Source of the DNA: Candidatus Nanohalarchaeota archaeon
GTDB taxonomy: Archaea; Nanohalarchaeota; Nanosalinia; Nanosalinales; Nanosalinaceae
Length of the DNA stretch: 64,000 nucleotides
Assembly: GCA_022729235.1 (NCBI GenBank)
Contig: JALDAJ010000001.1
Span: 700,442-764,441, forward strand
Direction of reading: 5' to 3'
The notes beneath the pieces are model-generated. The model had not been told where the DNA came from and made no database searches. It saw only the letters and a list, made by a program, of their open reading frames with translations. Shown here in pieces: positions 27,142 to 27,961 of this stretch. How positions within the stretch are numbered: the first letter of the stretch is position 1; each line of letters begins with the position of its first letter. The position numbers were made by a program, and so were the translations under genes.

Positions 27142-27612
27142 GTGGGACTTGAAGAATTAGAAGAAGATATCAGGCAACTTGAGCAGGATCTTGAAAGTCT
27201 TGTTCCCCAGAAGAAGGCAGCTTCGGCTAAACTGTTTCTAGATCAGTTCATGCCTCTCGCTATACTGATGCTAACTTTGATGATTGCCTTCCATATTTTC
27301 ATCCCAGTAAGCGATAGCATGGCTGTCGCTGTCAGCTACATGAACGTGGCTATCCTGTTCTTCTTCAGCGCCCGGTTCACGCTTGCTTTCATGCTGGCGG
27401 ATTCGCATAAAGGATTCCTCCGTGAACACTGGTTTGACGCGCTGCTTGTTCTACCAGCTTTTGCATTAGTCAAGGATATACGTCTGCTGCTTGCCCTAGA
27501 GTCCAGGACAGAGGAACGCGCTGTTATAGGCACTATTTTCGCGAGGAATACGACGGTTGCCAGCCAGTTAACCAAGATAATTACCTGGATCAGAAGAATT
27601 CTCAGGTTCTAA
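27142..27612 (+). CDS. Membrane protein with voltage-sensor-like segments
   Basis: A 156-residue protein starting at GTG. An N-terminal coiled coil (LEELEEDIRQLEQDLESL) is followed by three or four hydrophobic segments. The stretch FFFSARFTLAFMLADSHKGFLREHWFDALLVLPAFALVKDIRLLLAL resembles S2-S3-S4 of six-helix cation channels, with an Arg/Lys-bearing last helix. There is no pore domain, so it may be a stand-alone sensor domain. The C terminus is basic (ITWIRRILRF). Confidence 0.55.
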   Translation: MGLEELEEDIRQLEQDLESLVPQKKAASAKLFLDQFMPLAILMLTLMIAFHIFIPVSDSMAVAVSYMNVAILFFFSARFTLAFMLADSHKGFLREHWFDALLVLPAFALVKDIRLLLALESRTEERAVIGTIFARNTTVASQLTKIITWIRRILRF

Positions 27613-27627
27613 AAACATATCTCTGAT

Positions 27628-27772
27628 ATGGGTCCAACGGGATTTGAGACGAAAACAAGTTTTCTTAGTCAAATCACGTTTAACCAGCACGAAGTGATGG
27701 GCCCAACGGGATTTGAATTCGAAGAAGCAAGTTCTTCTGCAATCAAATCCCGGGAGAAAGCATATCTTTGAT
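27628..27772 (-). repeat. Tandem copies of the tRNA-Lys 3' end with long palindromes
   Basis: The last 20 or so bases of tRNA-Lys (T loop, T stem and acceptor strand) are repeated at 27697-27716 (identical) and 27628-27647 (one change), 76 and 69 bases apart. Each copy leads into a two-part hairpin. One is CGGGATTTGA...TCAAATCCCG (27707-27752) around GAAGAA-GCAAG-TTCTTC. The other is ATTTGA...TCAAAT (27642-27674) around GAAAAC-AA-GTTTTC. A short hairpin CATATC-AAA/AGA-GATATG lies at both outer ends. Confidence 0.85.
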
Positions 27773-27773
27773 A

Positions 27774-27908
27774 TGGGCCCAACGGGATTTGAACCCGCGA
27801 CGCCCGGCTTTCTTTGAAGCTTGGCTGACGCCTTGCTTCTAGGTCCTCGTCCCTTGCGGGACTTGAGGCTTAAAAGGCCGGTGCTCTGCCAGACTGAGCT
27901 ATGGGCCC
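27774..27908 (-). tRNA. tRNA-Lys (TTT) with a 61-nt intron
   Basis: On the minus strand GGGCCCA pairs with TGGGCCC, discriminator A. The anticodon stem CCGGC/GCCGG and loop CTTTTA give anticodon TTT. The intron (27810-27870) sits at 37/38 and contains GTCCC-TTGC-GGGAC inside CCTC..GAGG. The T arm is GCGGG-TTCAAAT-CCCGT. Two partial copies of its 3' end follow downstream. Confidence 0.94.
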
Positions 27909-27961
27909 ATGCGTATGGGTAATTGTTGTAGAATACCTGAGGTTTTTATACTGTCCGCCGA

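Follow-up and report, generated by a model that had tools for sequence, protein, structure and literature searches.

The minus strand of the region studied carries a tRNA-Lys(UUU) gene interrupted by a canonical intron and followed downstream, that is, towards falling coordinates, by two short cassettes of 76 and 69 nt, each of which ends in a copy of the 3' tail (nt 54-73) of that same tRNA. The locus lies in a window of 64,000 nucleotides (the whole stretch of DNA analysed; positions 700,442 to 764,441 of the forward strand of contig JALDAJ010000001.1, assembly GCA_022729235.1, Candidatus Nanohalarchaeota archaeon), belonging to a 1.03-Mb single-contig genome. The tRNA was identified with ARAGORN, with introns allowed, and with Rfam (RF00005, 55.4 bits), while the cassettes were recognized both by direct reading and by an independent repeat search, which returned a 36-nt direct-repeat family at 27612, 27681 and 27757 (spacings of 69 and 76). 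The features are as follows, with all coordinates referring to the window.

27774-27908, minus strand: tRNA-Lys(UUU) gene with a canonical 37/38 intron, its 3' tail (nt 54-73) being tail copy 1 at 27774-27793.
27698-27773, minus strand: cassette 1 (tRNA-proximal, probably newer), made of a first hairpin (HP1), a linker, a second hairpin (HP2) and tail copy 2.
27761-27775, minus strand: HP1 of cassette 1, CATATC AAA GATATG, whose 5' arm begins in the last bases of the tRNA.
27743-27751, minus strand: T' of cassette 1, GGGATTTGA, the complement of nt 55-63 of the tail, pairing perfectly with tail copy 2.
27718-27742, minus strand: inner hairpin H2 of cassette 1, of the GAAGAACTTGCTTC type.
27698-27717, minus strand: tail copy 2, identical to nt 54-73 of the tRNA (20/20).
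27629-27697, minus strand: cassette 2 (distal, probably older), made of HP1, a linker, HP2 and tail copy 3.
27684-27700, minus strand: HP1 of cassette 2, CCATCAC TTC GTGCTGG, reaching into the end of tail copy 2.
27669-27677, minus strand: T' of cassette 2, GTGATTTGA, with one mismatch to tail copy 3.
27629-27648, minus strand: tail copy 3, degenerate (GGACCC for GGGCCC, and C for T at nt 54).
27616-27630, minus strand: terminal HP1-like hairpin, CATATC AGA GATATG, followed by T5, a possible terminator.

The arrangement described in an earlier note was thus confirmed. The three copies of TGGG(C/T)CCAACGGGATTTGA(A/G) lie at 27629-27648, 27698-27717 and 27774-27793, and the arms TCAAATCCC (27743-27751) / GGGATTTGA (27709-27717), which are perfect, and TCAAATCAC / GGGATTTGA (27669-27677 / 27640-27648), with one mismatch, are present, as are the inner GAA..TTC hairpins and the CATATC NNN GATATG hairpins at 27616-27630 and 27761-27775. 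The pairing of T' with the tail was also seen in predicted folds, and the GGGATTTGA..TCAAATCCC unit is the only exact one in the genome. The similarity is beyond chance, since the own-tail score in the Lys trailer (20/20 overall and 13/13 for the last 13 nt) exceeds all 858 cross-tRNA controls (maximum 16/20 and 10/13). Nevertheless, two details of the note need to be changed: the tRNA is on the minus strand, so that the copies form its downstream trailer, and the inner hairpins, which the note had considered of unrelated sequence, belong to a recurring hairpin family of this genome. Clusters of three GAA..TTC hairpins also occur away from tRNAs (G000:C1:626180-626260 and 288490-288560, G000:C1 being the contig of this genome), one of them with the same hairpin as cassette 2 and apparently at the start of a gene, although the window as a whole shows no excess of hairpins over shuffled sequences (62 versus 60-64). 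The convergent ORF 27142-27612 ends just before the array, and nothing but the tRNAs matches Rfam, apart from one chance hit in a scan at E<=5. In addition, some tRNA leaders end in a hairpin whose 3' arm is the first bases of the tRNA (CCCAT ACGC ATGGG for Lys, at 27890-27915), mirroring HP1 at the 3' end, and about half of the tRNAs of the genome carry introns of 30-203 nt at 37/38, some of which contain perfect hairpins like those of the cassettes (Trp, Ser(GGA), Met, Thr).

The array is not a local accident. When each tRNA trailer of the genome was scored for a copy of its own tail against the tails of other tRNAs, 11 of 34 stood out (p<=0.012 by at least one of two scores), and 13 by a combined looser rule, namely Lys, Phe, Cys, Trp, Gly(GCC), Gly(TCC), Pro(GGG), Glu, Ser(UGA), Ser(CGA), Asp and, more weakly, Ser(GGA) and Met. 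A preference for A57 tRNAs in this genome was not significant (12/25 versus 1/7, p=0.2), and cassettes on G57 tRNAs do occur in Halorubrum. The motif GATTTGA-N15-40-TCAAATC occurs at 7 places, all behind tRNAs, with none in the reversed control. The tail-T'-tail arrangement was then sought in one genome per species of 84,980 species. The 80 stretches returned include about 50 archaeal tRNA 3' ends, where the true cases are Nanohaloarchaea, Halobacteria and a few other lineages, mostly named as halophiles (Halorutilus, Actinarchaeum halophilum) or of unstated habitat (Ods bins, one Woesearchaeon), while the rest look like chance matches. Several tRNAs of Nanoarchaeota/Pacearchaeota (L076, L081, L082, L087) are followed by a different, conserved trailer, GATTTGAACCTTGGTNTCAAATCCYGAGC, without an own-tail copy. 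No case was found in about 120 other archaeal genomes. A strict pattern applied across Halobacteria was found in 1 of 146 genomes, but its gap limit was too narrow for haloarchaeal units (genome G150 itself is missed), so this is no measure of prevalence.

Each cassette belongs to the tRNA in front of it. Over 54 units, the 11 nt of the tail copy beyond the searched motif match the own tRNA at 9.4 positions and other tRNAs at 4.6. Moreover, the stretch before GATTTGA matches the complement of the own tail better than permuted tails do, with z=5.9 in Halobacteria (0/5000) and a weaker specificity, z=3.0, in Nanohaloarchaea (8/5000). As regards the extent of the inverted part, an ungapped test showed a clear signal only at nt 61-63 (some to 66) and a depletion opposite nt 67 in Nanohaloarchaea, whereas a gapped test maintained a full-length inverted tail in Halobacteria; the arrangement is better read as two hairpins with a linker. 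A census of Halorubrum sp. Atlit-26R which was not based on that motif showed own-tail copies in 17 of 38 tRNAs (one because a second tRNA-Asp gene follows, which itself has a cassette), 16 of them 13/13 where the controls never exceed 11/13. T' also follows T-loop variants, TTCGAATCCC being found with GGGATTCGAA, TTCGAACCCGCC with GGCGGGTTCGAA and TTCAATTCC with GGAATTGAA; in the census genome, Leu(UAA) with TTCGAATCCC has AGGGATTCGAACC, Val(UAC) with TTCGAACCC has GGGTTCGAA, and Phe with TTCAAATCGGG has CCCGATTTGA.

In turn, one and the same core is reused on different tRNAs. The core CTATCAGTCGC...CGTCTGATTCC occurs at 17 places in 10 of 12 Halorubrum genomes, with none in the reversed control. 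All 17 are flanked by a T' arm and a tRNA tail, and 16 have a tRNA just upstream (Asp, three Gly species, two Arg, Val), the exception being locus L232, where no upstream tRNA was found on the stretch examined; at locus L236, ARAGORN names an Ala tRNA although the tail is that of Gly(GCC). The arms on both sides are those of the host tRNA, for example GGAATTGAACCC..CCGGTTCGATTCC at Gly(CCC) and GGCGGGTTCGAACCC..CCGGTTCGAACCCGCC at Val, while the tips vary and sometimes contain nested hairpins. Two broad core types recur, CAGGGAG..CGACYG and CCCT..TCCGG, although genome-wide co-location with tRNAs was tested for one core only.

The structure of the cassettes is kept. On 21 distinct cores of the second type, 90.2% of cells pair, 9 pairs changed on both sides, and 28 two-sided cells were counted against 8.5 after shuffling (0/500), while sliding by one column halves the pairing (slid controls, 15-52% paired). 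The stem next to the core changed from ATCAG/CTGAT to ACCAG/CTGGT and GGAAG/CTTCC. In 92 units, the differences between tail copy 2 and the tRNA keep a G-U pair with T' in 14 of 18 cases, against 12 of 33 changes of the same type in the unpaired acceptor part (Fisher p=0.008), although in this test indel copies were left out by a rule chosen after the data had been seen, and related sequences are not independent events. Both facts favour selection on a folded strand over pure mutation, but they do not distinguish RNA from single-stranded DNA. The alternatives put forward in the earlier note, that the pairing is being kept or was made by one mechanism, are therefore supported: counterparts exist behind about a third of the tRNAs of the same genome and behind many tRNAs of other Nanohaloarchaea and of Halobacteria, the compensatory and G-U changes show that pairing is kept, and the swapped cores with tRNA-specific arms show one common kind of element.

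The cassettes are also dynamic. At tRNA-Gly of Halorubrum, species carry different cassettes or none, always exactly between the last base of the tRNA (N73) and a tail copy, and the same distal unit (B) lies behind a variable tRNA-proximal cassette in about ten species and directly behind the tRNA in about nine. At tRNA-Ala(CGC) of Halorubrum (L200), an 87-nt cassette stands at least fourfold in near-perfect tandem, its inverted part seeming to pair with the acceptor end rather than with the T-loop. In the window, cassette 1 is, outside the tail, 80% identical to the tRNA-Trp cassette of the same genome, and its inner hairpin has relatives in the Trp and Phe cassettes, whereas cassette 2 is 85% identical to the single cassette behind tRNA-Lys of a relative of the same family with the length of Nanohaloarchaeon SG9 (CP012986). 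Since, in addition, the proximal arms are perfect and the distal tail is degenerate, the proximal cassette is probably the younger. At Gly(UCC), the trailer copies still read GACGCCGCA while the tRNA now reads GACTCCGCA, a fossil of the old tail and a sign that the copies themselves are not held to the tRNA. Distal copies decay, so a function of the tail copy itself is unlikely.

With moderate confidence, we interpret the locus as a two-cassette array of a family of small (about 50-130 nt) hairpin elements which sit behind tRNA genes of halophilic archaea, each insertion lying between N73 and a new copy of the tRNA's own 3' tail (nt 54-73, sometimes 61-73). HP1 reaches into the last 3-5 nt of the preceding tail, and HP2 pairs T' with the new tail copy around a core. 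From these data it is inferred that the cassettes spread by inserting at, or being copied into, the tRNA 3' end with duplication of the tail, that new ones are usually added next to the tRNA, and that old ones are lost by recombination between tail repeats. It is less certain that the array is transcribed as the pre-tRNA trailer (a T-rich stretch lies within 15 nt after the last tail copy in 8 of 10 arrays, but the test against other tRNAs was not significant, p=0.24) and that HP2, which pairs nt 54-63 of the extra tail, is kept because it hides this tail, which would otherwise compete with the real one for the 5' acceptor strand; this would explain why T' has to track the tRNA. Nevertheless, no transposase or recombinase could be tied to the cassettes: no Y1 transposase was found in 27 Nanohaloarchaea, although control genomes gave the expected signal, and the unit-rich genomes G005, G020 and G023 showed no tyrosine integrase at threshold, though two of these are incomplete. 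A further reading, which is not excluded but has to be considered unlikely, is that of a new class of mobile hairpin element shared between Nanohaloarchaea and Halobacteria (the group to which their known hosts belong), inserting behind tRNA genes through a dedicated mechanism, possibly the recombination of a folded single strand as in integrons, with arms rewritten to match each new tRNA, so that the tRNA 3' end serves as a programmable landing site.

Among the alternatives, a purely mutational origin survives best, although it is considered less likely. In this case, replication at the hairpin-prone tRNA 3' end would repeatedly switch template, the nascent strand folding back (making T') and then realigning at the T-arm (making the extra tail), while cores would travel between tRNAs because all T-arms share about 9-11 bp, so that no element, enzyme or function would be needed. 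The order tail-H1-T'-H2-tail is what two fold-backs would leave, the arms extend into whatever flanks the hairpin, GAA..TTC hairpins recur near tRNAs and at some other places of this genome, and no dedicated transposase was found. However, the cores keep the same asymmetric internal loop (CCCT against TCCGG) on most of the 17 tRNA loci while the arms outside it are rewritten, when a fold-back through the core should have made it symmetric, and the two-sided and G-U changes point to a kept structure.

An integron-like site-specific recombination is more doubtful. Here, T'-H2-tail would fold as single-stranded DNA into a hairpin rebuilding a double-stranded tRNA attB-like core, which a tRNA-specific tyrosine integrase would insert behind the tail, giving cassette arrays. 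Every cassette ends in a foldable site whose stem equals the tRNA T-arm/tail, arrays, presence/absence and mostly proximal variation were observed, and tyrosine integrases occur in 13 of 27 genomes. Moreover, a recurrent single extra base at nt 57/58 (TTCACAATC, TTCATAATC) in tail copies behind Gly, Thr and Lys tRNAs (loci L162, L170, L180, L193, L201) resembles extrahelical bases, or looks as if the copy's T-loop were being spoiled in the same way. Nevertheless, no gene-carrying cassette with this end was seen, the presence of integrases showed no consistent link with the cassettes, and strand exchange does not by itself create an inverted copy of the target.

Ordinary scars, that is, attachment-site duplications left by viruses or plasmids which integrated into tRNA genes and later lost their middle, are very unlikely. 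It is true that tRNA 3' tails are classic attachment sites (PMC8371274, PMC3119063) and that real integrations lie at the same loci, such as the apparent integrated elements at Halorubrum tRNA-Gly in L168 and L183, or the module at tRNA-Pro(UGG) of this genome (L032, G000:C1:158627-160699), where two genes which, judged by eye from the sequence, look like a nucleotidyltransferase/HEPN pair separate the tRNA from a partial second copy starting in the D-arm/anticodon region, whose T-arm is interrupted by two hairpins before its acceptor end (SG9 has a related but uninterrupted arrangement). However, the interiors are one conserved hairpin family with target-matched T' rather than random remnants, only 2 hits were obtained in 2.9 million viral contigs (IMG/VR) and none by similarity in phages or plasmids, and 30-45% of the tRNAs are affected. 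The cassettes warn that tail duplications behind tRNAs in halophiles need not be virus attachment scars. Finally, a T-arm intron spliced from tail copy 1 to the last copy by the archaeal endonuclease, although identical tails would give the same mature tRNA, archaeal T-loop introns are known and this genome has many 37/38 introns, is highly improbable, since tail copy 1 is complete and folds normally, T' makes a continuous helix rather than a bulge-helix-bulge in the folds examined (no dedicated search for the latter was run), and distal copies carry acceptor mutations that would break the spliced tRNA.

Although tRNA genes are under severe constraint, a third or more of them in these archaea carry shuffled hairpin cassettes made from their own 3' ends, and an element whose pairing arms track the identity of the gene it sits behind has not been described as far as the open-licence literature searched shows, an older description in a subscription journal being possible. 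In this context, each of the known families that could be tested fails a defining feature. The short mobile repeats SMR-A of Haloquadratum walsbyi (PMC3119063) are likewise tiny (about 110 bp), bounded by inverted repeats, transposase-free, present in a haloarchaeon and prone to target palindromes, and their mobilization has been called enigmatic, but they have fixed terminal repeats and no target duplication and sit in IS605/PATE palindromes, while the outer arms of the cassettes follow the host tRNA, the cassettes are flanked by tail copies, and all 17 places of the one core tested are flanked by tRNA tails. REP/BIME and PATE palindromic repeats are also short palindromes amplified without coding capacity, but no Y1 transposase was found in the nanohaloarchaeal genomes and the arms of the cassettes depend on the host tRNA. 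The attachment-site duplications of integrative elements (PMC8371274, PMC3119063) share the duplication of a tRNA 3' part at the far end of an insertion, but here the insert is 50-130 nt of conserved hairpin, too short for an integrase and without cargo. The inserts between tails are related hairpins and not the unique spacers of a CRISPR array. The distal repeats of E. coli tyrT (rtT RNA) probably lie within the tRNA transcription unit and form tandem repeats behind a tRNA gene, as here, each carrying about 19 bp of the 3' end of the preceding tRNA, but they would represent one locus with 178-bp repeats, with no T'-tail hairpin known and no reuse on other tRNAs, and no match to the Rfam rtT model was obtained here. 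Lastly, the layout resembles that of integron cassette arrays, whose attC sites are probably likewise foldable imperfect palindromes with a variable tip at the end of each cassette, although no genes were seen in the cassettes and the site is made of tRNA sequence.
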